From positions 1,804,501 through 1,868,500 of the forward strand of contig NZ_LBIQ01000030.1 of assembly GCF_001280515.1 (NCBI RefSeq): a DNA stretch of 64,000 nt, given 5' to 3'. Shown here one piece after another: positions 31,137-43,636 of this stretch. How positions within the stretch are numbered: position 1 is the first letter of the stretch; every line of letters starts with the position of its first letter. A model generated the notes under the pieces. That model saw nothing but the letters and a program-made list of their open reading frames with translations, had not been told where the DNA came from and did not search any database. The position numbers were made by a program, and so were the translations under genes. The DNA comes from Mangrovimonas sp. ST2L15. Its GTDB lineage: Bacteria; Bacteroidota; Bacteroidia; Flavobacteriales; Flavobacteriaceae.

Positions 31137-32438
31137 CTAATCCAAAGCCGCTTTATAGGTTTTTAAACACCGCTCTCTAGCTTCTTTGTGGTCTACAATC
31201 TGGCGGTACCTTAGTTCTTGGTATTCGGGGACCCATTTTTTGATATACTTGTGGTCTTTGTCAAATTTTTCAATTTGTGTAGTAGGATTAAAAATCCTAA
31301 AATAAGGAGCAGCATCCACACCAGAACCAGCCACCCATTGCCAGTTGCCCACATTGCTTGCCATCTCATAATCATGCAGTTTTTCTGCAAAATAGGCTTC
31401 GCCCCAGCGCCAGTCTATTAAAAGATGTTTGCACAAAAAGCTACCAACCACCATGCGCACCCGGTTGTGCATGTATCCCGTTTCATTCAGTTGGCGCATC
31501 CCAGCATCTACTAAAGGATAACCCGTTTTTCCGCCGCACCAAGCTTTAAATTCCTCTTCGTTATTCCGCCATTGGATTCGGTCATATTTTGACTTAAAAC
31601 TTTCATGCACCGTATGTGGAAAGTGCCATAAAATCTGCATGAAAAATTCCCTCCAGATTAGTTCTTGCCAAAAGGTTTCGTTTTTGTCTGCAATGGCTTT
31701 TTTAACCATTTTCCGAATACTTACCGTTCCAAACCGTAAGTGGGGACCCAACCTAGAGGTGCCATCAACAGCAGGAAAATTTCTGGTGTCTTTATAGTCA
31801 TGAATAAGAGTAGGGGTGACATCATAGTCTTCAATAGTTTGTGAAGATTTTTCAAATCCCAAATCTTTTAAATCCAAATTGGGCAATCGCGTATTTTTTA
31901 CCAGATTATCCAAATAGGAATTGGTGTAATAAATATTTAAATCAGTGGTTTTAAATTTGGCCTTCCACGTCTTCATATAAGGGGTATAAACCACATAGGG
32001 ATCGCCATTATCCTTCACCACTTCGTCTTTTTCAAAAATGACTTGGTCTTTAAATGTTTTAAACTGTATGTCCTTTTGAGAAAGTAAGTTTTTGATGGCA
32101 TCATCCCGTTCTTTGGCATAAGGCTCATAATCATGATTGGTGAAAACGGCACTTATTTCATATGTTGCAATTAGGTCTTCAAAAATGTCCTTTGGCGTAC
32201 CCTGGAAGATGGCAATGGAACTGTCATGTTCCTTTTGCAATTCCTTTCTAAGTTTCTGAAGCGTTTCAAAAATGAAGGTAACTCGCGCATCATCCTTAGG
32301 CAAACCTTCAAGAATCTGCGTGTCAAAGATGAAAATGGGTAAGACAGGAAGCTCACTTTTTAAGGCATGATAGAATCCCAAATTGTCATCAAGCCTTAAA
32401 TCTCTTCTAAACCAAAATAAGTTGATGGGTTCTTTCAT
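31137..32438 (-). CDS. phrB: Class I CPD photolyase (PhrB type)
   Basis: It repairs cyclobutane pyrimidine dimers using blue light and FADH-. The 433 residues have the N-terminal antenna-binding Rossmann domain (INLFWFRRDLRLDDN) and the FAD domain: TSRLGPHLRFG, IWREFFMQILWHFPH, GYPLVDAGMRQL, MHNRVRMVVGSFL, and NVGNWQWVAGSGVDAAPYFRIF-type end block, where the Asn before VGNWQW and the tryptophan chain are kept. It overlaps the SRPBCC gene by 4 bases and is the last gene of the gpx-tspO-SRPBCC-phrB operon. One of three photolyase-family genes within 8 kb. Confidence 0.95.
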   Translation of the reverse strand: MKEPINLFWFRRDLRLDDNLGFYHALKSELPVLPIFIFDTQILEGLPKDDARVTFIFETLQKLRKELQKEHDSSIAIFQGTPKDIFEDLIATYEISAVFTNHDYEPYAKERDDAIKNLLSQKDIQFKTFKDQVIFEKDEVVKDNGDPYVVYTPYMKTWKAKFKTTDLNIYYTNSYLDNLVKNTRLPNLDLKDLGFEKSSQTIEDYDVTPTLIHDYKDTRNFPAVDGTSRLGPHLRFGTVSIRKMVKKAIADKNETFWQELIWREFFMQILWHFPHTVHESFKSKYDRIQWRNNEEEFKAWCGGKTGYPLVDAGMRQLNETGYMHNRVRMVVGSFLCKHLLIDWRWGEAYFAEKLHDYEMASNVGNWQWVAGSGVDAAPYFRIFNPTTQIEKFDKDHKYIKKWVPEYQELRYRQIVDHKEARERCLKTYKAALD

Positions 32439-32905
32439 TGTTGTTTGTATGCTCCAAAAAGTTCGACAAGTTTGTTTTTTCGATATTCAAAAATTTCTTC
32501 CAATTTGGGACGTACCATAAGGGGATGGGTCCATTTACCAAAGATTCCAAAAGGAATTTTATAATCAATTAAGTCTTCCATTTCAACTCCACCAGGAATG
32601 GGTTTGATGAAATGTTTGTGATGCCAAAGTGCATAAGGGCCAAACCGTTGTTCATCAACAAAATATTCGTAATCTTTCACATGGGTGATTTCTGTAACCC
32701 ATTTGGTTTTTATCCCCATAACGGGCGTTACGATGTATTGGATTATCTGTCCTGGGTACATGTCTTTATCGGCACCAGAAAGAATATGAAACCCCATATA
32801 ATCGGGAGTAATCACTTTTAAATTCCTTGGATTGGATAAAAAATCCCAAGCTTCTTCTATAGAAATAGGTAATTTCTGAAATTTATGTAATTGGTATAAG
32901 GCCAT
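32435..32905 (-). CDS. SRPBCC family ligand-binding protein
   Basis: I use ATG 32905 (MALYQLHKFQKLP); a start further upstream would run into tspO. The 156-residue protein matches the START/SRPBCC helix-grip fold of COG4276-type proteins: FQKLPISIEEAWDFLSNPRN at the N-terminus and a conserved tail with FGPYALWHHKHFI. Such proteins bind hydrophobic ligands and are often found next to photolyase genes. Here the gene starts 2 bases after the tspO stop and overlaps phrB by 4 bases. The ligand is unknown. Confidence 0.82.
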   Translation of the reverse strand: MALYQLHKFQKLPISIEEAWDFLSNPRNLKVITPDYMGFHILSGADKDMYPGQIIQYIVTPVMGIKTKWVTEITHVKDYEYFVDEQRFGPYALWHHKHFIKPIPGGVEMEDLIDYKIPFGIFGKWTHPLMVRPKLEEIFEYRKNKLVELFGAYKQQ

Positions 32906-32907
32906 TT

Positions 32908-33372
32908 TTAATTTTCCAAAAAGATATAGGCGTTCAAAGAAATGGCTACAATGAGCCACAATAAATAGGGTATTAGTAGGAAACGGGCTTTTCTCATGTT
33001 TTCAATTCTGAATTTGAAAAAGAGATAAGTGATAATTAAAAATAGAATGGAAATAACTACCAGTCCCCAAAAGATCAAATGTTGGTTAAAAAATACATAG
33101 TTCCAACTAACATTGAAAATGACCTGGAAGATAAAAATTCCTCGCAACGGCCAAGAGTCATGATCTTTAAACAGAAATGCCAGATAGATTGAAAAACAAA
33201 TCATTATTAAGGTCCAAGCAAAACCGAAAACCCAACCAGCGGGGGTCCAAGGCGCTTTGTTGAGATCCATGTACCACAAGGATTGCGGACCATTATCCAT
33301 TAACCAACTTCCTAAGGCAAGACTAGCAAAGTTGATCAAGAGAAATAATAAGATGAGTTTTAAAATTTTCAT
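32908..33372 (-). CDS. tspO: TspO/MBR family tryptophan-rich sensory protein
   Basis: The 154-residue protein has five membrane helices and the family tryptophans (GSWLMDNGPQSLWYMDLNKAPWTPAGWVFG near 21-50, NVSWNYVFF near 97). TspO binds porphyrins and other tetrapyrroles and takes part in stress and light responses in several bacteria. It overlaps the glutathione peroxidase gene by 4 bases (ATGA) and lies 2 bases before the SRPBCC start, so translation is coupled. A role in handling light-reactive porphyrins fits the neighbouring photolyases, but this is inference. Confidence 0.92.
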   Translation of the reverse strand: MKILKLILLFLLINFASLALGSWLMDNGPQSLWYMDLNKAPWTPAGWVFGFAWTLIMICFSIYLAFLFKDHDSWPLRGIFIFQVIFNVSWNYVFFNQHLIFWGLVVISILFLIITYLFFKFRIENMRKARFLLIPYLLWLIVAISLNAYIFLEN

Positions 33373-33914
33373 TCTACATATTTGGTTATTTTACTGCTCA
33401 TTGGCTTGGTAATGGAGTACCAAACATCTATAAAATGGCCATTCTCATCAACCATATATTTTTGAAAGTTCCATTTGACAGAGGAGCTTTTGACACCATT
33501 TATATCTTTGTCTGTGAGCCATTTGTATAAAGGATGCTGATTTTCGCCTTTAACATCAATTTTTTCTGTCATTAAAAAGTCTACGCCATAATTTTTTTGG
33601 CAAAAGCTTTGTATTTCTGACGCGCTTCCAGGTTCTTGACCTCCAAATTGATTACAAGGCAGACCTATGATGACCAATTTGTCTTGGTATTTTTTATGCA
33701 GCTCTTCAAGTTCAGCATACTGTGGTGTAAAACCACATTCGGATGCCGTATTTACAAATAGTATTTTCTTGCCTTTAAATTGACCCAAATCGATAGGGTC
33801 TCCAGAAAGGCTATTTATTGCGATATCATAAATGGACTCTTTTGGCTCATTTTGAGCTTTTGTTTTACAATTAAAAAACATAGTAAATGCGATAATTAAA
33901 GTGAGATATTTCAT
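33369..33914 (-). CDS. Glutathione peroxidase-family thiol peroxidase, lipoprotein
   Basis: The 181-residue protein has a signal segment ending MFFNCKTKAQ (lipobox Cys16), then the family blocks NTASECGFTPQYAELE with the peroxidatic Cys (in place of Sec), LPCNQFGGQEPG with the catalytic Gln, and VKWNFQKYMVD with the catalytic Trp-Asn. It reduces hydroperoxides, most likely with thioredoxin-type reductant because this group lacks glutathione. The export signal places it outside the inner membrane. First gene of the tspO-SRPBCC-phrB operon. Confidence 0.9.
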   Translation of the reverse strand: MKYLTLIIAFTMFFNCKTKAQNEPKESIYDIAINSLSGDPIDLGQFKGKKILFVNTASECGFTPQYAELEELHKKYQDKLVIIGLPCNQFGGQEPGSASEIQSFCQKNYGVDFLMTEKIDVKGENQHPLYKWLTDKDINGVKSSSVKWNFQKYMVDENGHFIDVWYSITKPMSSKITKYVE

Positions 33915-33997: not shown

Positions 33998-34936
33998 TTA
34001 TTCTTTTATTTGAGTTTTTTCATCAAATTCATTCATAACAGAAACTCTTGTTTTTGGTAAGCTTTCGGGATAATTTTTTTGAATGAATTTAATCAATCCT
34101 TCTCTTACATAAACTCTTAAATCCCAGGCTTGAGGTGAATTTCTGGCACTCATTAAAGCCCTAATTTCTACACTACGCTCTTTTGAATCGGTTACCTGAA
34201 GCACATTTACCTGTTTGTCCCATAATTCTGTGGATTCCAAAAGTCTTGTGAGTTCCTCTCTCAAAGCATCAAAATCTACATTATAATCGGTGTATATAAA
34301 GACGGTACCAAGAATTTCTGAGGTGGTACGTGTCCAATTTTGAAAGGGTTTTTCAATAAAATAGGTAGTGGGTAAAACCAATCTTCGTTTATCCCAAATT
34401 CTTACAACCACAAACGTAAGTGTGATTTCTTCAACCCAACCCCATTCACCTTCCACAACCAAAACATCATCCAAACGAATAGGCTGGGAAATGGCAATTT
34501 GCATTCCCGCCAATATTGTGGCAATAGCTTTTTGAGCCGCAAAACCCACAATTATTCCTGCAATACCTGCCGAGGCAAAAACGCTAACTCCAAATTTCCT
34601 CACGCTATCAAATAACATTAAACTCAAACCAATAGCTATGATAAGAATGATGAAAATGATAACTCTTTCGAGAACATTAAATTGCGTATATAACTTTCGG
34701 GCTCTTAGGTTGTTTTCACTGGAAATATCATACTTTGTTAAGTACTTCTTTTTTGCAACTTTAATCGTGACTATGATAGCCCAAGTGATCGCTAGAATGA
34801 TCATGATGGAGCTTACTTTTTCAATAACCAATTTGGCTTTTTCCAAATCATTAACGTATGGAAGCACTAATTTTGGAAGAAAGAAAGCTGCCAATAGAAT
34901 AAGGACCGGAGCAATGTAACGTTTTATAAAAGTCAT
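33998..34936 (-). CDS. MscS-family mechanosensitive ion channel
   Basis: I use ATG 34936 (MTFIKRYIAP); a TTG further upstream is less likely. The 312-residue protein has four hydrophobic helices (about 8-25, 35-60, 85-105 and 115-145), the glycine/alanine-rich pore helix (FASAGIAGIIVGFAAQKAIATILAGM) and the cytoplasmic beta and alpha/beta domains with PIRLDDVLVVEGEWG. It relieves osmotic stress. It lies in the photolyase run, 88 bases after folE and 83 bases before gpx, so it may be its own unit. Confidence 0.9.
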   Translation of the reverse strand: MTFIKRYIAPVLILLAAFFLPKLVLPYVNDLEKAKLVIEKVSSIMIILAITWAIIVTIKVAKKKYLTKYDISSENNLRARKLYTQFNVLERVIIFIILIIAIGLSLMLFDSVRKFGVSVFASAGIAGIIVGFAAQKAIATILAGMQIAISQPIRLDDVLVVEGEWGWVEEITLTFVVVRIWDKRRLVLPTTYFIEKPFQNWTRTTSEILGTVFIYTDYNVDFDALREELTRLLESTELWDKQVNVLQVTDSKERSVEIRALMSARNSPQAWDLRVYVREGLIKFIQKNYPESLPKTRVSVMNEFDEKTQIKE

Positions 34937-35024
34937 AGATTTATCTTTTGTCTTAAGATAATTAATATGCAAAAGGATTGAAAGGGTTTAACTAAGTTTT
35001 AAAACGTTATTGATAATTTGACAA

Positions 35025-35717
35025 TTATTGCTGGATATAATTTTGTAATTCAGATATTTTTTGAGGTGAATTAAACTGACCACCGAAAAAAGTTGTAACC
35101 GTAGATGAGGTGTTATCTTTCACGCCTCTAGAAGAAACACATAAATGTTTCGCTTCAATAATTACAGCCACATCTTCGGTTTCTAAAACCGCCTTGAGCT
35201 CATTGGCAATTTGCATGGTGAGTCGTTCTTGAACTTGTGGTCGTTTGGCATAGTACTGAACAATACGGTTTAATTTGGATAACCCAATTACTTTACCAGA
35301 GGAAATATATGCCACATGAGCCTTACCAATAATGGGAACAAAATGGTGTTCGCAATTGGAGTAAAAACTAATGTTTTTCTCCACCAGCATTTGGTTGTAT
35401 TGATATTTGTTTTCAAAAAGGGCAACGGAAGGCTTGTTCTTAGGATTTAAACCACAAAAAATCTCGTCAACATACATTTTTGCTACTCTTTCGGGAGTGC
35501 CTTTCAAAGAATCATCAGTAAGATCAAGTCCCAATACATCCATGATTTCTTCAAAAAGGATGCTTATTTTTTCTTTCTTCTCTTGGTCTGAAAGTTTGAA
35601 AGCGTTAGGTTTCATTGGGGTATCTAAAGAAGTGAACAAATGATCATTCCCAATATCTTCCGAATTAAATTCATTTAGATTATGACCATTTTTCTTTAAC
35701 TGTGTTTTTGTGCTCAT
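35025..35717 (-). CDS. folE: GTP cyclohydrolase I
   Basis: It makes 7,8-dihydroneopterin triphosphate, first step of folate and pterin synthesis. The 230 residues have the zinc ligands Cys and His in SNCEHHFVPIIGKAHVAY (about 120-137) and Cys in AKHLCVSSRGV (about 190-200), plus LSKLNRIVQYYAKRPQVQERLT. The N-terminal 45 residues are an extra polar extension. It overlaps the 143-residue gene by 4 bases, so they share a transcript. Its place among photolyase genes suggests it supplies a pterin cofactor such as MTHF or another pterin, which is inference. Confidence 0.95.
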   Translation of the reverse strand: MSTKTQLKKNGHNLNEFNSEDIGNDHLFTSLDTPMKPNAFKLSDQEKKEKISILFEEIMDVLGLDLTDDSLKGTPERVAKMYVDEIFCGLNPKNKPSVALFENKYQYNQMLVEKNISFYSNCEHHFVPIIGKAHVAYISSGKVIGLSKLNRIVQYYAKRPQVQERLTMQIANELKAVLETEDVAVIIEAKHLCVSSRGVKDNTSSTVTTFFGGQFNSPQKISELQNYIQQ

Positions 35718-36145
35718 ACCAAGTTTATAAAGTTATGTTGTTTGTCATAGGCTATTTTAGCAGCCATCATTTTTTTTAGAAACCCTTTATTTTCTTTAAA
35801 GGTTTTATTGTTGCTGAACTGAATAAATTTTCCTTGAGCATGAATACTCATAAATTTAGTTTTATAAATGTGCAACTGATAGTATGGGATGACCCAAGTG
35901 AAATTTTTTAAACCTTTGTTGATATAGATAACAATACCATGTGGTCTTAGTTCGATATTAGCATAATTGATATCAGAAACCTTGTTTGAATATTGTTGCA
36001 AATTAGGACTGACCTTTTGAATAATCATTCTTTTTGAACCAATGCCTCTCATTTTGATGGATTGCCATAATGAAAATGATTTGCCCACAATATCTTCAAT
36101 TAGAGACTTGTGTTCCTTCTCAAAATATGTGGTGTTTAGGATCAA
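35714..36145 (-). CDS. Hypothetical protein upstream of folE
   Basis: The 143-residue protein has no signal or membrane segment. It is basic, with regular alternating strands in the middle (IELRPHGIVIYI, FTWVIPYYQLHIYKT, MSIHAQGKFIQF) and helices at both ends, suggesting a small alpha/beta fold. I do not recognise a family. It is translationally coupled with folE (ATGA overlap) and is first in its unit, directly behind the shared TGTTTAA/TTAAACA promoter. This links it to the photolyase group, but no function can be assigned. Confidence 0.7.
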   Translation of the reverse strand: MILNTTYFEKEHKSLIEDIVGKSFSLWQSIKMRGIGSKRMIIQKVSPNLQQYSNKVSDINYANIELRPHGIVIYINKGLKNFTWVIPYYQLHIYKTKFMSIHAQGKFIQFSNNKTFKENKGFLKKMMAAKIAYDKQHNFINLV

Positions 36146-36163: not shown

Positions 36164-36206
36164 CAAAGATACAAATTGTTTAACTAAAAAGATAAAAGAT
36201 TAAACA
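36164..36206 (-). promoter_or_regulatory. Promoter with paired TGTTTAA/TTAAACA operator (143 aa-folE)
   Basis: On the minus strand: TGTTTAA (36206-36200), 16 bases, TTAAACA (36183-36177), ATTTG, and the -7 element TATCTTTG (36171-36164). The start codon is 18 bases further on. The half-sites form an inverted repeat spanning 30 bases. The same arrangement and spacing stands upstream of the TetR gene (42579-42621). No standard TTTG -33 element lies at 19 bases from the -7 element, so the operator may replace it as an activator site. Confidence 0.65.
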
Positions 36207-36221
36207 AAATTAACAAGACAT

Positions 36222-37757
36222 TTAGTAATCGGCTTGATTTTTTATGATGTCTGAGGCTCTTTTTTTAATAGTTTCTACTTGTTTCTTGTCCATTTTGTCC
36301 AAGATGCTATACATCATTTTCATTCTTTGGTTATCCTGTAATTGCTTTCTTTTGTCATCCAAAAAATTCCAGTAAAGACTATTAAAGGGGCAAGCATTTT
36401 CTTCTGTTTTTTTCTTGTAATCATAATGGCAACCTGTGCAATAATTACTCATTTTTTGTATGTAAGATCCCGAAGACACATAAGGTTTTGTTGCAATGTT
36501 TCCTCCTTCTGCAAATTGACTCATGCCCCTTGTATTGGGTAGTTGCACCCATTCTATGGCATCTGCATATATCCCTAGGTACCAAGCATCCACTTCATCA
36601 GGATGAGTTTGGGTGAGTAAAGCATAGTTTCCAGTAATCATCAAGCGTTGAATGTGGTGGGCATAGGCGTGATCTAATGAATTCTGAATGGTGTTTTTGA
36701 GACAGTTCATTTTGGTGTCACCATCCCAAAAGAAGGATGCTAGCTTGTTGGTGTTATTTAAGTGATTTTCGTCCTTAAATTTTGGCATCATGGCCCAATA
36801 CATTCCACGCATATACTCTCGCCATCCTAAAATCTGTCTGATAAAGCCTTCTATTTGGGATATATCTATGTTTTTTCCATGCTTTCGGTAGTAATTCAAA
36901 ACGGTATCAATGACATTTTTGGGAGAAATCAATTTTAAATTCAGTGCAAAGGATAGCCTGCTGTGGAATAAATTTACTTCTTCAGTATTCATGGCATCTT
37001 GATAGTCTCCAAAATATTGAAGGAGCTCTTCACAAAAATATTTTAACTGATTTAAGGCTTGATTTCTTGTAATGGGATATAAAAATGTTTGGGTAGAAAA
37101 GGCACCTATGGTTTTTATTTTGGCCTTTTCAATGTCTTTAAGGACGACATCTACATCATTTTTAAAATATTTGTAATGAGGTACTTTTGGATTGCCATTC
37201 CATGATTTTCGGTTGGATTTGTCATAATTCCATTTTCCGCCTTCGGGTTGATTGTCTCCTACAATAAGAATCTCGTGTTTCTTTCTCATGTATCTATAAA
37301 ATGTTTCCATGAGATATAGCTTTTTTCCTTTAAAGAATTCTTGAAGTTCATTTCTGTCTGTATAGAAATGTTCGCTAGAAACGGTTTCAGAAGGAATGGC
37401 GAGGGATTTACAAATAGATTGTAATTGCTTATCTAAGCGGTGTTCATCAGGAAGCTGGTATTCAAATTTACTAAAACCATGCTTTTGGATAAGTGCTCCT
37501 AAGTTTTCATCCAGCTTTTGATGGTTATACTTGTCATTTATTTTAAAATAAATCACATGATGACCCTGAGATTTAAGCGCTTCGCAAAATTGTCTCATTG
37601 CCGCAAAAAAGCCAATCACTTTTTGAATATGATGGACTACATAGTCTGTTTCTTGCCTCATTTCAAATAGGCAATAAGTCACCTCTTGGTCAACTTCTTT
37701 AAACCAGGAGTGCTTGAAATTGAGTTGATCTCCTAAAAGGAGTCTGAGAGTTTTCAT
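36222..37757 (-). CDS. Iron-sulfur photolyase (FeS-BCP / PhrB-like prokaryotic (6-4) photolyase)
   Basis: The 511-residue protein begins MKTLRLLLGDQLNFKHSWF, typical of the COG3046 branch. Its four cluster cysteines are at 352 (MNCLKN), 440, 443 (CTGC) and 456 (CPFNSLYW); the spacing (88, 3, 13) is the same as in the characterised enzyme PhrB. It should repair (6-4) photoproducts and bind FAD, a lumazine antenna and a [4Fe-4S] cluster. It begins one base after the DASH cryptochrome stop, so the two are translated from one transcript. AYAHHIQRLMITGNYALL is the FAD-domain landmark. Confidence 0.94.
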   Translation of the reverse strand: MKTLRLLLGDQLNFKHSWFKEVDQEVTYCLFEMRQETDYVVHHIQKVIGFFAAMRQFCEALKSQGHHVIYFKINDKYNHQKLDENLGALIQKHGFSKFEYQLPDEHRLDKQLQSICKSLAIPSETVSSEHFYTDRNELQEFFKGKKLYLMETFYRYMRKKHEILIVGDNQPEGGKWNYDKSNRKSWNGNPKVPHYKYFKNDVDVVLKDIEKAKIKTIGAFSTQTFLYPITRNQALNQLKYFCEELLQYFGDYQDAMNTEEVNLFHSRLSFALNLKLISPKNVIDTVLNYYRKHGKNIDISQIEGFIRQILGWREYMRGMYWAMMPKFKDENHLNNTNKLASFFWDGDTKMNCLKNTIQNSLDHAYAHHIQRLMITGNYALLTQTHPDEVDAWYLGIYADAIEWVQLPNTRGMSQFAEGGNIATKPYVSSGSYIQKMSNYCTGCHYDYKKKTEENACPFNSLYWNFLDDKRKQLQDNQRMKMMYSILDKMDKKQVETIKKRASDIIKNQADY

Positions 37758-39068
37758 TTATATTGGAGTTCGTTCTAACCAGAGATTTTGGTAAGTTTCC
37801 TGAGGGTCGTATCGTTCGGCTTGAAGCTTGACATTGAATTCACGGTTTCTTGGATCGTTGCCAACACCTGATAGGTACATCCAGTTGCCATAATTGCTGT
37901 GGACGTCATAATCAAGTAACAAGGATTCAAAGTAAGACGCCCCAATACGCCAATCTAAATTCAAGGTTTTGGCGAAGTATGAGGCTACATTTTGCCTTCC
38001 ACGATTACTCATCCAGCCAGTTTGTTTTATTTCTAACATGTTGGCATTTACAAAAGCTTTTGGCGTCTTACCATGAATCCACTCATTGATTAAATCCCAA
38101 TCTTGTTTCCAAACATAGTCTTGTTGAAGAATTCCATGGATGCGAAATATAGAATTACCATATTTTAAAGAGACATATTTGAAAAAGTCTCTCCAGATGA
38201 GTTCGAAAATTAACCAATAGGTGGAATCATTTTTGGTATGTAAGTTTTCAAACTTTTTCACATTCCAATAGATCATTTTTGCGCTTATAGAACCATTTGC
38301 TAACCATGGTGAAAATTTCGAACTATAATCAACTCCCAATAGCCTATTTCTCGTTTTTTTATAGGTTTTTATTGTTTCGTTTTGAAATAAATATTGATCA
38401 AGTCTGTTTAAAGCCGAAGTCTCTCCACCTTGAAATGGAAAGGCAGTAAGCGAATGTTGTTCAAAATCTTCAAACCCCAATTCCCATAATGTGGGTATTG
38501 GCGTGTCCTTTTTAATAATGGTACCGCTCTCGTTTTTGGTTTCTATCAGGGGGCGAATAGATGCCGTTTTTTCTATCCGTTTTCTAAAATCTGTAAAAAC
38601 TCGCGGAATGTTTTCAACCTCAAATGGCAGGTCTTCGGGATGAAATAGGAATTGGCTGTAGAATGTATGGAATATGACTGAATCGGGTATGTTTCTTTTT
38701 AATTCATTTATAACTGCTTGCTCTTCTGAAGTCCATTCATTTTGATAATACATGTCAGATACCGCAAATTCTTTGATCAAATCAGGAATAATCGTTTCTG
38801 GTTTTTTATGATAAACCAAAAGTGTAATACTCAAAGTTGCCAAGTTTTTCTTTAAATCTGTAACAGTTTCTAAAAGAAACTTTGCTCGAAACTTTCCAGT
38901 TTTTTGAAATCCGAAGGCCGAATTTCTGTAGTGTCTGGGGTCAAAGCAATAGACGGCAATAACGTTTTGGTGATTTTCACAAGCTTGCTTTAAAGAGGCG
39001 TTATCGTGAATTCTTAAATTATTGGTAAACCAAACTAAGCCGTATTTCGATTTTTGTTTCTTCTGCAT
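37758..39068 (-). CDS. DASH-family cryptochrome
   Basis: The 436-residue protein has the photolyase antenna domain (KYGLVWFTNNLRIHDNASL) and the FAD domain with FSPWLANGSIS, IWRDFFKYVSLKYG, GWMSNRGRQNVASYFAKTL, SNYGNWMYLSGVGNDPR, the DASH-specific ends (REFNVKLQAERYDPQ). DASH cryptochromes repair single-stranded CPDs and/or act as light sensors. It shares 34 bases with the DUF2256 gene upstream and directly precedes the iron-sulfur photolyase gene. Start at ATG 39068. Confidence 0.94.
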   Translation of the reverse strand: MQKKQKSKYGLVWFTNNLRIHDNASLKQACENHQNVIAVYCFDPRHYRNSAFGFQKTGKFRAKFLLETVTDLKKNLATLSITLLVYHKKPETIIPDLIKEFAVSDMYYQNEWTSEEQAVINELKRNIPDSVIFHTFYSQFLFHPEDLPFEVENIPRVFTDFRKRIEKTASIRPLIETKNESGTIIKKDTPIPTLWELGFEDFEQHSLTAFPFQGGETSALNRLDQYLFQNETIKTYKKTRNRLLGVDYSSKFSPWLANGSISAKMIYWNVKKFENLHTKNDSTYWLIFELIWRDFFKYVSLKYGNSIFRIHGILQQDYVWKQDWDLINEWIHGKTPKAFVNANMLEIKQTGWMSNRGRQNVASYFAKTLNLDWRIGASYFESLLLDYDVHSNYGNWMYLSGVGNDPRNREFNVKLQAERYDPQETYQNLWLERTPI

Positions 39069-39178
39069 TTTTCACTACAATAAATTACATCGTTCCAATG
39101 GTGTTCCCATTTTTTTCTCCAAGTGAATGGGCGATTGCAAATAGGGCATATTTTTTCGGGAAGGTGTTGTTTTTTCAT
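39035..39178 (-). CDS. DUF2256 zinc-finger-like small protein
   Basis: An ORF of 47 residues lies between the SDR and DASH cryptochrome genes: ATG at 39178, TAG at 39035-39037. It reads MKKQHLPEKICPICNRPFTW and onward with WRKKWEHHW and YCSEKCRR. Cys11, 14, 34 and 38 (CPIC, CSEKC) make a probable zinc site. This is the DUF2256 family, which I know mainly beside or fused to photolyase/cryptochrome genes. It overlaps the SDR gene by 4 bases (ATGA) and the DASH cryptochrome gene by 34 bases, so it is translationally coupled with both. Confidence 0.9.
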   Translation of the reverse strand: MKKQHLPEKICPICNRPFTWRKKWEHHWNDVIYCSEKCRRNKNRNTA

Positions 39179-40596
39179 GTTGCCACAAGCCTTCTTATCA
39201 TACCGTTAAAAATAAAACCATGAAAGGGAAGTACCGCATACCAATATAGCCGTCCGGCTATGCCTCTCGGCCTAAAGGTTGCAGTTTGTTTTAAGAGGTT
39301 TTCTTCAATTTTGAATTCCAACCAGGCTTCACCTGGAAGTTTCATTTCTGCATAAAGTAGAAGCTTTTGCTTGGTTCTGTCTGCATAAATGACGCGCCAA
39401 AAATCCAGAGCATCTCCGGCATGCAAGTTGTAAGGATTCGTTCTGCCACGTCGTAAACCTATGCCGCCAACTAATTTGTCTAGATACCCTCTAATCTTCC
39501 ATAAAAAATTACCATAATACCAACCTTGGTTTCCGCCAATGGCCCAAATTTTATCGATGGTTTTGTCGGTATTGGTGACATGTGCCTCTTTATAATCTTT
39601 AAAGCAGCCATACTTAGGAACATTAATGTATTTATAAAGATTCTTCTTCAATCGTCCGCTGCTTACCATGGAATCTTTCCAACTTGAAACAATGGTGTTT
39701 TGTTCTATTTTCTCAAAAGCCAATGACACGGCTTCTTTATAGGAAATAGGATAAATATCAAGAAGTTCATTTATTTGACTTGGATTACCAATTATTTGAA
39801 CACTCATGCTATCGACCAACGAAGTCGCTAATTTGTATGAAGTAGAGGTTACAAAATAAAGCCAGTAGGAGGAAAGCTTTGGAGTCATGACTGGAACGGT
39901 CCAAATATGACGATTCAATTCCCTTACCTCCGCAAACTGAAGCAACATGTTTTTATAAGTCAGAATTTCTGGACCGAAAATATCATAAGATTGATTGTAA
40001 AGTTTTTCATTGCCCAAAGCTTTTGACAGATACGACATGACATCTCTTACTGCCAGTGGTTGTGTTTTTGTGTGAAGCCACTTGGGAGCAATCATCACGG
40101 GAAGTTTTTCTACTAAATCTCTTATGATTTCAAAGGAAGAACTACCAGAACCAACTATAATTCCTGCTTTGAAAATAGTAGTTGCAAAAGTACCTGATTT
40201 GAGAATGTCTTCAACTTGCTTTCTTGATCTAAGATGTTTTGAAAGCTTTTCCTCATTGGTAATTCCACTTAAATAAATAACTTGTTGGCACTGGGTTTTT
40301 TCTACTCGTGATTTAAAATTTTCGGCACAAGTCATTTCCATTTTTTCAAAATCTTTGGAAGAATTTGACATGGAATGAATCAGATAGTAGGCAGCATCAA
40401 TATCTTCAGGAATGTTCTGTAAGGTCTCTTTTTTTAGGAAATCAACTTCTACAAAACTAACGAATTCTTCATCCAAAGTTTCATCTGCTCGCAAACGGTC
40501 ACGAACAGCGCAAACCACATGGTGCCCCTCATTAATCAAAATAGGAATGAGTCGCTTACCAATATACCCGGTTGCCCCCGTGACCAATACTTTCAT
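39175..40596 (-). CDS. SDR/NAD(P)-epimerase with DUF2867 domain
   Basis: The 473-residue protein has an N-terminal Rossmann-type atypical SDR (MKVLVTGATGYIGKRLIPIL, GATGYIG at 7-13; about 1-290) and a C-terminal DUF2867 domain (about 320-470: GNQGWYYGNFLWKIRGYLD, GDALDFWRVIYAD, PFHGFIFNGMIRR). Proteins of this build occur beside photolyases in many bacteria and no reaction is known. It lies in a tightly coupled operon: 4-base overlaps with the ABC1 kinase gene before and with DUF2256 after. No signal peptide; probably peripheral to the membrane. Confidence 0.87.
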   Translation of the reverse strand: MKVLVTGATGYIGKRLIPILINEGHHVVCAVRDRLRADETLDEEFVSFVEVDFLKKETLQNIPEDIDAAYYLIHSMSNSSKDFEKMEMTCAENFKSRVEKTQCQQVIYLSGITNEEKLSKHLRSRKQVEDILKSGTFATTIFKAGIIVGSGSSSFEIIRDLVEKLPVMIAPKWLHTKTQPLAVRDVMSYLSKALGNEKLYNQSYDIFGPEILTYKNMLLQFAEVRELNRHIWTVPVMTPKLSSYWLYFVTSTSYKLATSLVDSMSVQIIGNPSQINELLDIYPISYKEAVSLAFEKIEQNTIVSSWKDSMVSSGRLKKNLYKYINVPKYGCFKDYKEAHVTNTDKTIDKIWAIGGNQGWYYGNFLWKIRGYLDKLVGGIGLRRGRTNPYNLHAGDALDFWRVIYADRTKQKLLLYAEMKLPGEAWLEFKIEENLLKQTATFRPRGIAGRLYWYAVLPFHGFIFNGMIRRLVAT

Positions 40597-41900
40597 TTAA
40601 AAAACGTCTTGATTTTTACATTCTGGGATTTTAAATCAAACATCAGGTTGTAAAGGCCAAAAAAGGTTCGATTTATATAAATGAAATGCTCTGAACCTCT
40701 ATTTCCATTCATTTTTCTTATCTGGGTGTTTTTGGCATATTTCTCACCTAAGGCTGCTATTTGATTAAAGAAATCGGCATTAGAAAAATCAAACGTTTCC
40801 TCTTGAATGGGTTGGGTAAACAGACTGAGCATTTCATAAAACATTTGACTGAAAAATTCTATTTCTTTTGGCCCGTCTTCAGGTTTTAAAATCTCCAATT
40901 CATAAAGTTTATCCTTAAAAAACTCAGGATTGTTTAAATTGTGTGGTTCAGCCAATTCAAAATAAGGAACATAAAAGTCTTCAGGAATGGTTTTAATACA
41001 TCCAAAATCTAAAACGACTAAATCACCTTCATTTGAAACCAAAAAGTTTCCTGGATGCGGATCGGCATGTACCTTTTTTAATACGTGAATTTGATACATG
41101 TAAAAATCCCACAGGGCTTGCCCCAACTGGTTTGATAATTCTTGATTTTGATTGTGTTTTACAAAATCTGAGAGATGCTCACCATGCATGTAATCCATCG
41201 TTATGATGCGATTGGATGACAATTCTTCGTAATAATTGGGGAATTTTAAATGTGGAATGTGCATGCAAGCCTCGGCCATTTCTCTACTTTGGCTTAATTC
41301 CAATTCGTAATTAGTTTCTTCAATGAGCTTATTTTCTACTTCCTTAAAATATTTGTCAGAGTCTTTCCCTTTGATGTTAAACATTTTAATAGCTATTGGT
41401 TTAACCATAGCCAAGTCAGAAGATATGCTTTCTGCGACTCCAGGGTATTGAATTTTCACAGCTAATTTTTTCCCATCTTTTTCGGCTTCATGCACTTGGC
41501 CAATACTGGCTGCATTGACAGAATTGGGATTGAAGGAGTCAAATAAATCTTCTGGCGATTTTCCAAAATAGGACTTAAACGTTTTGTTTACCAAAGGAGC
41601 GGAGAGTGGAGGAACTGAAAACTGAGCCAATGAAAATTGCTCCACATAAGCTCTTGGTAAGATGTTCTTCTCCATACTAAGCATTTGGGCTACTTTTAAA
41701 GCACTTCCTTTTAATTGCTTCAAACTATCATAGATGTCCTCGGCATTATTTTTATCTAAATTCTCTCTGGCCTCTTCTTCGGTCTTGGTGATTTTATCTC
41801 CATAGTATTTGAGATAGTTAACACCTACTTTAGCGCCCGTAGTAACAAGCTTTCCGGCTCGTTGTATTTTACTGGTAGGGATATGGTCTATGGTTTTCAT
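40593..41900 (-). CDS. ABC1/UbiB (COQ8-like) atypical kinase
   Basis: The 435-residue protein belongs to the ABC1/ADCK family. KGSALKVAQMLS (65-76) occupies the KxGQ position but reads KVAQ, with Ala for Gly. The Ala-rich loop is AASIGQVHEAE, the lysine AVKIQYPGVAESI, the acid site HADPHPGNFLV and metal DFG in VVLDFGCIK. It looks more like COQ8 than E. coli UbiB. It lacks the C-terminal membrane helices usual in UbiB. Known family members support isoprenoid quinone or lipid metabolism and, in plants, photoprotection. It follows the TetR gene by 7 bases and overlaps the SDR gene by 4. Confidence 0.87.
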   Translation of the reverse strand: MKTIDHIPTSKIQRAGKLVTTGAKVGVNYLKYYGDKITKTEEEARENLDKNNAEDIYDSLKQLKGSALKVAQMLSMEKNILPRAYVEQFSLAQFSVPPLSAPLVNKTFKSYFGKSPEDLFDSFNPNSVNAASIGQVHEAEKDGKKLAVKIQYPGVAESISSDLAMVKPIAIKMFNIKGKDSDKYFKEVENKLIEETNYELELSQSREMAEACMHIPHLKFPNYYEELSSNRIITMDYMHGEHLSDFVKHNQNQELSNQLGQALWDFYMYQIHVLKKVHADPHPGNFLVSNEGDLVVLDFGCIKTIPEDFYVPYFELAEPHNLNNPEFFKDKLYELEILKPEDGPKEIEFFSQMFYEMLSLFTQPIQEETFDFSNADFFNQIAALGEKYAKNTQIRKMNGNRGSEHFIYINRTFFGLYNLMFDLKSQNVKIKTFFK

Positions 41901-41907
41901 ATGGTGC

Positions 41908-42564
41908 TTATTTCATGGGCATTTTTTCTTTAAAAAGAAATTTCCCGAGGTCTACAATGTTTTTTAGTGGGGTGGTATCTAGAATATCAAAGCTGGTATT
42001 CACAGATTTTTCTATAAAAATATCTGTTTTTTCAAATGCTTTAGAAGTGTCTTCCATCCAGAACTTCATCGTTAAAAGTAATTGTACCCATGCCGATTCA
42101 CCGATAAAGCGTTTCTTTGCTTTTTCAATTCTTTCTTCTGTAAAATCTAGGGTTTCAATATCTAGGGACTCTATGTAATCAATAAAGATTTCTCTTAAAG
42201 CTGATAGGCACTTTAAATTTTTAAAATTGTTTTTGTGTTTATTGAGGGCATAGGTTACATAGCTTCTATTTGCTGTTAAATTTTCGAAAAAAGTAAAGTA
42301 AAAACTAAGTAATTTGGTTCGAGCATCATAGGTATCATACTCCTTACTAGAGCCTAATGTTGCGAGTGTTTGAATCGCAAATTGGTTAAAAATCTCTTTT
42401 TCCAGAGCTTCAAAAGAACTAAAGTGTTGATAAAATTCAGATTCATCAATGTTATGTTCTTTCCCAAATTTATGTACCGAAGTGGGTTCTTTTCCAAATT
42501 CAAGTACATAATCCATATAGGCATCAATTAAATGCATCAAGGTTATTTTCTTTTTTTTTGCCAT
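41908..42564 (-). CDS. TetR/AcrR-family regulator
   Basis: The 218-residue protein has an N-terminal HTH (about 8-52: SVHKFGKEHNIDESEFYQHF) and an all-helical ligand-binding domain. It is the first gene of the ABC1-SDR-DUF2256-DASH-FeS photolyase unit. Upstream is the TGTTTAA-N16-TTAAACA operator at 42592-42621, which also occurs before the 143 aa-folE unit. It is a natural candidate to bind these sites, either as a self-regulating repressor or in response to a photoproduct, but this is inference. The signal it senses is unknown. Confidence 0.8.
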   Translation of the reverse strand: MAKKKKITLMHLIDAYMDYVLEFGKEPTSVHKFGKEHNIDESEFYQHFSSFEALEKEIFNQFAIQTLATLGSSKEYDTYDARTKLLSFYFTFFENLTANRSYVTYALNKHKNNFKNLKCLSALREIFIDYIESLDIETLDFTEERIEKAKKRFIGESAWVQLLLTMKFWMEDTSKAFEKTDIFIEKSVNTSFDILDTTPLKNIVDLGKFLFKEKMPMK

Positions 42565-42578
42565 TCCAATGTTTTTAG

Positions 42579-42621
42579 TAAAATTACAAAATGTTTAATT
42601 GTTATTAAAATAAGTTAAACA
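42579..42621 (-). promoter_or_regulatory. Promoter with paired TGTTTAA/TTAAACA operator (TetR-photolyase unit)
   Basis: On the minus strand: TGTTTAA (42621-42615), 16 bases, TTAAACA (42598-42592), TTTTG, and TAATTTTA (42586-42579, one mismatch to TAnnTTTG). The start codon of the TetR gene follows 14 bases on. The layout, half-site spacing and 5-base gap to the -7 element are the same as at 36164-36206. Confidence 0.62.
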
Positions 42622-42787: not shown

Positions 42788-43636
42788 ATGAAAAAAATAT
42801 TACTTTCAGCAGTAGGACTTATGCTTGCCGTAAGTTTGAATGCACAAGTTTCAACCCCTCAACCTAGTCCAACGGCTAAATTGGAGCAGCCTGTGGGATT
42901 AACTCAAGTTACTTTGGAATATTCACGTCCAGGAGTTAAAGGAAGAACGGTATTCGGGGATTTAGTTCCTTACGGAAAAATTTGGAGAACAGGAGCCAAC
43001 AAAAACTCAATCATTACCTTTAGTGATGATGTAGAAGTAGCTGGTTATGAAGTAAAAGCTGGTTCTTATGCCATCTTTACAAAGCCAGGAGAAAGTTTAT
43101 GGGAAATTTATTTGTATTCAGATACCAATAATTGGGGAATTCCTGAAAAATGGGATGAAAGTAAAGTGGTTGCTATAGCTAAGGCTCAAGTGCATCCAAT
43201 ACCATTCAATGTGGAGACTTTTACCATGGATATCAATAATATTAAAAGTTCTGAAGCTACCTTAGAGTTTATTTGGGAAAAAACTTATGTGGCTGTGCCA
43301 TTTACAGTACCAACTGATAAAAAAGTTATGGCTTCTATCAATGATGCTTTAAGTGGATCGCCAAAGGCCAACGATTACTATGCAGCAGCGGCTTATTATT
43401 ATTCTGAAAATAAGGATATCGAGCAAGCTAAGGAATGGATCGATAAGGCTATGTCTATGAATGAAAAGCCTCAATTCTGGCAATACAGACAACAATCTCT
43501 TATCTATGCAAAAGCAGGAGATAAGGATGGTGCTATTGGTCTAGCTAAAAAATCTCTGCAGGCTGCAAAGGAAGCTGGTAACGATGACTATGTAAAAATG
43601 AACATGGATTCCCTAAAAGAGTGGGGAGCTATGTAA
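42788..43636 (+). CDS. DUF2911 protein with TPR-like C-terminus, exported
   Basis: The 282-residue protein has a cleavable signal peptide (MKKILLSAVGLMLAVSLNAQ). The DUF2911 domain (about 25-175) shows QPSPTAKLEQPVGLTQVTLEYSRP-type start, FGDLVPYGKIWRTGANK and GSYAIFTKPGE. The last about 90 residues are helical with TPR-like periodicity (KANDYYAAAAYYYSENKD). DUF2911 is common in Bacteroidota without an assigned role. A strong terminator follows. Monocistronic. Confidence 0.85.
   Translation: MKKILLSAVGLMLAVSLNAQVSTPQPSPTAKLEQPVGLTQVTLEYSRPGVKGRTVFGDLVPYGKIWRTGANKNSIITFSDDVEVAGYEVKAGSYAIFTKPGESLWEIYLYSDTNNWGIPEKWDESKVVAIAKAQVHPIPFNVETFTMDINNIKSSEATLEFIWEKTYVAVPFTVPTDKKVMASINDALSGSPKANDYYAAAAYYYSENKDIEQAKEWIDKAMSMNEKPQFWQYRQQSLIYAKAGDKDGAIGLAKKSLQAAKEAGNDDYVKMNMDSLKEWGAM

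Follow-up and report, generated by a model that had tools for sequence, protein, structure and literature searches.

A photolyase gene group within a 64,000-nt stretch of DNA from Mangrovimonas sp. ST2L15 (the whole stretch being called the window) contains two copies of the inverted repeat TGTTTAA-N16-TTAAACA, one before a TetR gene and one before a 143-amino-acid (aa) gene and folE, which raises the question of which regulator reads them. The first-pass annotation of this DNA had proposed that one regulator controls both parts of the group, perhaps the TetR protein or a light-dependent activator encoded elsewhere, and had suggested searching related Flavobacteriaceae for the motif. Our search found that orthologous promoters keep the site and that carotenoid genes have it too, which supports a single regulator. 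In particular, both sites are, with high confidence, putative operators of a CarH/LitR-type regulator that would repress their promoters in the dark and be released from them by light.

Two sites with one layout

Throughout, genomes carry G-numbers (G000 is the window's own genome) and inspected loci carry L-numbers; a close CarH is a relative of the own CarH-like protein at E <= 1e-50. The two sites and their promoter elements are:

42592..42621, minus strand: operator site 1 (TGTTTAA-N16-TTAAACA, read from 42621 to 42592), upstream of the TetR gene; exact match, with a site at the same place in 25 of the 26 loci from close-CarH genomes that rank among the 30 best for TetR
42579..42586, minus strand: -7 box TAATTTTA of the operon-1 promoter, 5 bases past site 1; same offset in 34 of 35 TetR promoters
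36177..36206, minus strand: operator site 2 (TGTTTAA-N16-TTAAACA, read from 36206 to 36177), upstream of the 143 aa-folE unit; exact match, with 9 of the sites surveyed in relatives likewise preceding orthologues of the 143 aa gene
36164..36171, minus strand: -7 box TATCTTTG of the unit-2 promoter, 5 bases past site 2; this spacing recurs in 10 of 10 promoters before the 143 aa gene

This layout agrees with the annotation, including the 5-base gap between site and -7 box (TTTTG at site 1, ATTTG at site 2), the distances from box to start codon (14 bases to the ATG at 42564 and 18 bases to the TTG at 36145) and the divergence of the two copies outside their half-sites, where the 16-base spacers are unrelated to each other. 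The annotation had also remarked that the 36 kb copy has no standard -33 TTTG. This is correct, but it does not set that copy apart: read by eye, 19 bases before the -7 box, the two window promoters have TTTA and TCTT, and the missing -33 element is not peculiar to the 36 kb copy because neither is an exact TTTG. Further, no conserved -33 box was seen at the usual distance in the group consensus of site-bearing promoters. Sites 1 and 2 are the only exact matches in the window, and no further place in it differs by just 1 or 2 bases; allowing up to 3 mismatches gives 21 matches against a mean of 18.0 in shuffled sequences, so loose matches are meaningless.

The site accompanies CarH, not TetR

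A draw of 249 genomes from the window's family was screened for exact copies of the site and for the CarH-like and TetR proteins; the presence lists were compiled by hand, 26 of the genomes counted as lacking CarH and 70 of those counted as lacking TetR being the remainder of the draw. Named CarH relatives are all Flavobacteriaceae where a family or genus is given. The exact site occurs in 183 of 186 genomes with a close CarH, in 6 of 17 with a weaker relative and in 8 of 46 where none was found (183/186 versus 14/63 for all others; Fisher 2.5e-35). Summed over the draw, there are 726 exact sites against 29 matches to a reversed-pattern control (699 against 24 in the close-CarH genomes and 27 against 5 in the other 63). 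In contrast, TetR makes no difference to the presence of the site among close-CarH genomes, where it occurs in 142 of 144 genomes with TetR and in 41 of 42 without it (p 0.54); outside them, it is present in 6 of 15 genomes with TetR and 8 of 48 without (p 0.08).

The spacer length is part of the signal. When it was freed to 4-28 bases, N16 accounted for 30 of the 42 places listed in nine close-CarH genomes (counted by eye, with 2 of the 9 places in G009 among those listed) and for 4 of the 31 places listed in seven genomes without a close CarH (also by eye, leaving out G007 with 2 of 2). Moreover, in a second sample of 247 genomes from the phylum, the exact site occurs in 25 of 27 members of the family and in 17 of 34 others of the class (control 3 of 34). 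Beyond the class, 6 of 186 genomes have it against 8 with the control pattern, so there is no signal there. Of the 34 genomes of the class outside the family, 23 have a CarH relative (E <= 1e-12), and 15 of these contain the site, compared with 2 of the 11 without one.

The TetR promoters of relatives show the same dependence. The site stands before TetR at 25 of the 26 close-CarH loci mentioned above (24 exact, one with 1 mismatch), always 27-35 bases upstream of the ATG, G084 being the exception without a site. Nine further close-CarH genomes with distant TetR proteins all have a site (0 or 1 mismatch) within 250 bases upstream, though in four of the nine it is 173-238 bases off and may serve another promoter. 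Five genomes with TetR but no detected CarH were examined: four (G059, G158, G180 and G228) have no site before TetR, and G079, which is 81% complete, has one. Where CarH is weak, the TetR promoter contains TGTCTAA-N16-TTAGACA in G038, the same with N17 in G040, and the common site in G025 and G241. In two genomes without TetR, G143 and G130, the site directly precedes SRPBCC-phr and TspO-SRPBCC-phr.

The site changes with the CarH clade

The variant TGTCTAA-N16-TTAGACA, sought in 48 chosen genomes, occurs exactly in nine: eight of the 17 with a weak CarH, plus G135, whose genome encodes both kinds of CarH; none of the 30 others has it. It lies directly upstream of carH in G032, G168, G184, G203 and G222. 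In a tree of 81 CarH proteins, whose deepest forks are weak and whose bootstrap is not settled, the variant readers form one clade of 20 rows with a support of 100/99. When up to 1 mismatch and a spacer of either N16 or N17 were permitted, up to 300 bases from carH, 17 of the clade's 20 loci have a variant site (exact in 6), the other 3 have no site and none has a common one, versus 33 common, 27 none and 1 variant (G135) at the other 61 loci. Overall, a site adjoins carH in 51 of 81 loci, the reversed pattern in 0 of 81 and five shuffles in 0, 0, 0, 1 and 0.

The proteins change at the recognition helix, where residue 51 is Lys in 18 of 20 variant-clade rows and Ile in 56 of the 61 others. 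The CarH of G025 (L129) belongs to the variant clade yet has Ile51, and its genome contains four TGTTTAA sites, one of them at TetR, and no TGTCTAA; this single exception is suggestive but no proof, and G025 offers a natural test of the specificity residue. In G135 (L117, L136), residue 51 of the common-type CarH is Val, and a variant-like site (TGTCCAA/TTAGACA) lies downstream of the gene.

Upstream of the diverged carH genes at L120, L125, L124 and L123, the variant site is repeated two or three times, often at intervals of 52 or 66 bases and in some cases with N17, which probably reflects autoregulation through a repeated operator. Within the window's genus, G028, G484 and G485 have the diverged CarH clade and G000 the common one, a mixture that could be due to replacement, transfer or a loose genus.

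The CarH-like protein

The gene for the candidate reader adjoins crtI-crtB on the window's contig, some 91 kb to the left of the window:

G000:C24:1712794-1713762, minus strand: own CarH-like gene

Its N-terminal domain is a MerR winged helix (PF13411, 51 bits, cut-off 21.6) and its C-terminal region a B12-binding one (B12-binding_2, PF02607, 38.4 bits, cut-off 23); PF02310 is not among its Pfam matches. The best NCBIfam match is the CarH equivalog NF052513, at 75.3 bits and below the cut-off of 400. The best PDB sequence matches are 3whp and Thermus CarH entries. A model of a 70%-identical relative (mean predicted local distance difference test score, pLDDT, 82.9) has full-length Thermus CarH as its first structural match, at template-modelling (TM) scores of 0.56/0.59 and a root-mean-square deviation of 10.5, with the domains oriented differently. 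The cofactor-pocket residues are largely retained across 81 CarH rows (Trp in 80, Glu in 81, His in 78 and the Glu of ExH in 79), as is the lower-ligand His, equivalent to His177, in 78. The genome also contains a cobalamin adenosyltransferase gene (PF01923, E 2.8e-62). Moreover, both half-sites, TAAACA and TAGACA, fit TnnACA, the core of known CarH operators, and the difference between the clades falls on an n position.

Genes behind the site and promoter geometry

In the own genome, the exact pattern occurs at five places (0 for the reversed pattern) and, with at most 1 mismatch, at 14 places against 2 for the control. Of the three exact sites outside the window, two precede a fasciclin-domain gene (L006), and the third precedes a 171 aa gene of outer-membrane type (L005). 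Among the nine places with one mismatch, L008 lies between the CarH-like gene, with its MerR and B12 domains, and crtI-crtB; none of the remaining eight inspected is clearly part of the regulon, several being inside genes. The paired sites are in tandem, 43 bases apart in the own genome (L006:7982-8054) and 42 bases apart in G044 (L177:3003-3074), in both cases before fasciclin genes beside mnmA.

A survey of 81 sites combined 75 places listed for 20 relatives (some genomes in part) with the own five exact sites and the own one-mismatch crtI site. Altogether, 67 of the 81 are placed at a start codon, from 12 bases inside the gene to 70 bases ahead of it. Named by their best BLAST match, the genes behind them are fasciclin (19), TetR (14), the 143 aa gene (10), CrtI (9), SRPBCC (2), DUF2867 (2), TspO (1), the own outer-membrane-type gene (1) and nine others, namely four secreted proteins with a GLPGLI motif, two GHMP-kinase-like, one MsrA-like and one TonB-receptor-like protein (read from sequence), and one CrtW-like ketolase (NCBIfam E 1e-71, below its cut-off).

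The -7 box takes one of two positions, 20 bases apart. Relative to the start of the site, it begins at 34-35 bases in 34 of 35 TetR promoters and 10 of 10 promoters of the 143 aa gene, and at 15 bases, inside the spacer, in 15 of 15 crtI promoters and 11 of 19 fasciclin promoters; the remaining eight fasciclin promoters have no common -7 place. In either position the site overlies the core promoter. This overlap points to a dark repressor rather than an activator, and it is our basis for inferring the sign of control. At crtI, judging by the sequence, the transcript may be leaderless or nearly so because the ATG follows the site by 0-4 bases in the rows measured. The order of -7 box TATATTTG, TTAAACA and crtI ATG 0-4 bases on is found at L008:3750-3780 and in relatives L138, L148, L154, L158, L168, L184 and L199.

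The photolyase group in the window

All genes of the group are on the minus strand, behind the two sites:

41908..42564, minus strand: TetR-like gene, 218 aa (TetR_C_23), first gene after site 1
40593..41900, minus strand: ABC1/AarF-like kinase gene
39175..40596, minus strand: NAD-binding and DUF2867 gene
37758..39068, minus strand: DASH-type cryptochrome gene (TIGR02765, above cut-off)
36222..37757, minus strand: photolyase-related (DPRP) gene (PF04244, above cut-off)
35714..36145, minus strand: 143 aa gene with a TTG start, first gene after site 2; relatives begin MILNTT with ATG
35025..35717, minus strand: folE, GTP cyclohydrolase I (PF01227)
33998..34972, minus strand: mechanosensitive-channel-like gene (PF00924)
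31137..33914, minus strand: GPx-like, TspO-like, SRPBCC-like and photolyase genes, on the same strand as the preceding and named by reading the sequence

The 143 aa gene has no Pfam or NCBIfam match; it is retained upstream of folE in the cluster of many relatives, with its own site. A secreted-type gene (42788-43636) diverges from TetR, its start 166 bases from site 1, and may share the regulator because genes for similar proteins diverge from TetR in L144 and from SRPBCC in L171. Further, a gene read as HtpG-like diverges from TetR 132 bases (L149) and 109 bases (L163) from the site, and another HtpG-like gene lies 117 bases from a site in L139.

Discussion

Site, conservation, placement, tie to the presence of CarH and change with the CarH clade are all read directly from the sequences; binding, cofactor loading, light release and repression would be carried over from the regulator's relatives by analogy. 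In the dark, the CarH/LitR-type protein, probably loaded with adenosylcobalamin, would sit on the two inverted TnnACA half-sites 16 bases apart, cover the core promoter and block transcription; in the light, it would leave the site. Since the same site is common to the photolyase and cryptochrome operons, the folE unit, crtI, the fasciclins and other genes, one sensor would run much of the light response.

Several observations weigh against a CarH-type reader. Fourteen genomes without a close CarH have the site, and in 8 of those no CarH was found (7 of the 8 are 73-88% complete and G224 is 94%), while the close-CarH genomes G020, G092 and G135 have no exact site. The TetR promoters of G007, G014 and G168 are without a site despite a CarH relative, and those of G066, G230 and G135 contain half-changed hybrids. 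Among the surveyed sites, 14 of 81 have no start codon within 70 bases. Of the 17 variant sites beside carH, 11 deviate by one mismatch and several are spaced by N17. The candidate rule that every carH-crtI gap contains a site was rejected: the gap has one at only 11 of 30 carH loci (9 at up to 1 mismatch, plus L073, whose locus is cut short, and L051, which has N17). The arrangement of known CarH operators, tandem direct repeats, is absent: the half-sites are inverted with N16, and neither tandem 11-bp direct repeats nor a third repeat was seen in the site consensus. Finally, the position equivalent to His132, the light-state upper ligand in Thermus CarH, is His in 0 of 81 rows, being Gln in 42 of the 61 rows outside the variant clade and Gly in 16 of the 20 within it (four of 80 named CarH loci gave no usable frame). 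Because of this absence, the photochemistry may differ from that of Thermus CarH, and we class the reader as a variant of the CarH type rather than as a Thermus-like CarH.

The TetR protein of operon 1 is the suspect closest at hand; it would bind both sites, repressing its own gene and controlling the folE unit. Site 1 lies directly before its gene, TetR promoters are among the commonest places of the site (14 of 81), and close-CarH genomes have more sites when TetR is present (mean 4.08 versus 2.67), a surplus that may only reflect the extra TetR promoter. Nevertheless, the site is present in 41 of 42 close-CarH genomes that have no TetR, and at the phr operons of TetR-less G143 and G130, while four of the five genomes examined in which no CarH was detected have none before TetR; TetR was rejected as the reader, and a role for it here is very improbable. 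A light regulator encoded elsewhere, as the annotation had also proposed, does fit; its description as an activator probably does not, given sites that overlie the core promoter.

Activation by CarH, dependent on light or B12, could apply at least where the -7 box is downstream of the site, as at the TetR and 143 aa promoters. Many MerR proteins activate, these promoters have no conserved -33 box, and the -7 offset is fixed at either of its two values as if the protein touched the polymerase. We consider it unlikely: at crtI, and at 11 of the 19 fasciclin promoters, the site encloses the -7 box, a placement in which bound protein should block, and the CarH proteins described in the excerpts of PMC9304148 and PMC8156234 and in the abstract of PMC4557120 are dark repressors. 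Another regulator travelling with CarH would produce much of the same co-occurrence, which cannot separate linked genes, and 27 of 61 non-variant rows have no site within 300 bases of carH. It is quite unlikely that such a protein reads the sites when these change with the CarH clade, adjoin carH in 51 of 81 loci and fit TnnACA, and when G025, of the variant clade but with Ile51, retains the common site. As for chance palindromes in AT-rich promoter DNA, the loose matches in the window are indeed at chance level, but the excess of 726 exact sites over 29 control matches in 249 genomes and the preference for N16 (30 of 42 places listed, with the spacer freed) make the probability negligible.

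With moderate confidence, we extend the CarH-type reading beyond the window: Flavobacteriaceae, and partly others of the class, would have a single light regulon of photolyases, cryptochromes, folE, carotenoids, fasciclins and more under a His132-less CarH variant, which would read an inverted TnnACA pair set at either of two distances from the -7 box that differ by two helical turns; as the recognition helix changed in one clade (Lys for Ile51, with neighbours), its operators would have been rewritten from TAAACA to TAGACA. If so, one searchable operator predicts the light regulon in most genomes of a family that is common in sunlit water, and the supply of vitamin B12 is tied to sun protection. 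Moreover, regulators with different half-sites (TGTTTAA versus TGTCTAA) would form a natural pair for the study of specificity, and the His132-less proteins would test how B12 photoreceptors work. For the window itself, a CarH-type reader replaces a nearby and apparently wrong suspect, TetR.

Comparison with known systems

The protein resembles CarH of Thermus thermophilus, Bacillus megaterium and myxobacteria, B12 photoreceptor-repressors, in its MerR and B12-binding domains, the retained lower-ligand His, Trp and Glu-His, a gene beside carotenoid genes, a TnnACA half-site and an operator overlapping the promoter. Unlike them, it has two inverted half-sites with N16, no His132 equivalent, a score below the NCBIfam CarH cut-off, and a regulon extending to photolyase clusters, folE and fasciclins; the known CarH operators, as excerpted in PMC9304148 and PMC8156234, are tandem 11-bp direct repeats with TnnACA. 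For Thermus, reports on the H132A protein differ: it was mostly tetrameric after light in one study and disassembled in an earlier one, according to an excerpt of PMC10442372.

Within the phylum, Chryseobacterium lacus shares light-linked carotenoid genes: they are light-induced, with a regulator thought to act like CarA/LitR, in an account (PMC7064467) whose excerpt describes neither an operator nor a photolyase regulon. In the open-licence PMC literature, represented mostly by titles and the beginnings of abstracts and exclusive of subscription papers, no article was found that names the operator or a Flavobacteriaceae CarH regulon. The closest system in function is class II LitR of Pseudomonas (PplR, PmlR), which, in the excerpt of PMC9758184, similarly governs one MerR-type light regulon, with phrB, cryB and folE, through a spaced pair of TnnACA half-sites (TGTACA-N12-TGTACA) that overlaps the -35 region. 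Class II LitR retains only the 4-helix part and works with a LOV (light-oxygen-voltage) photoreceptor, whereas the present protein keeps the full B12-binding region.

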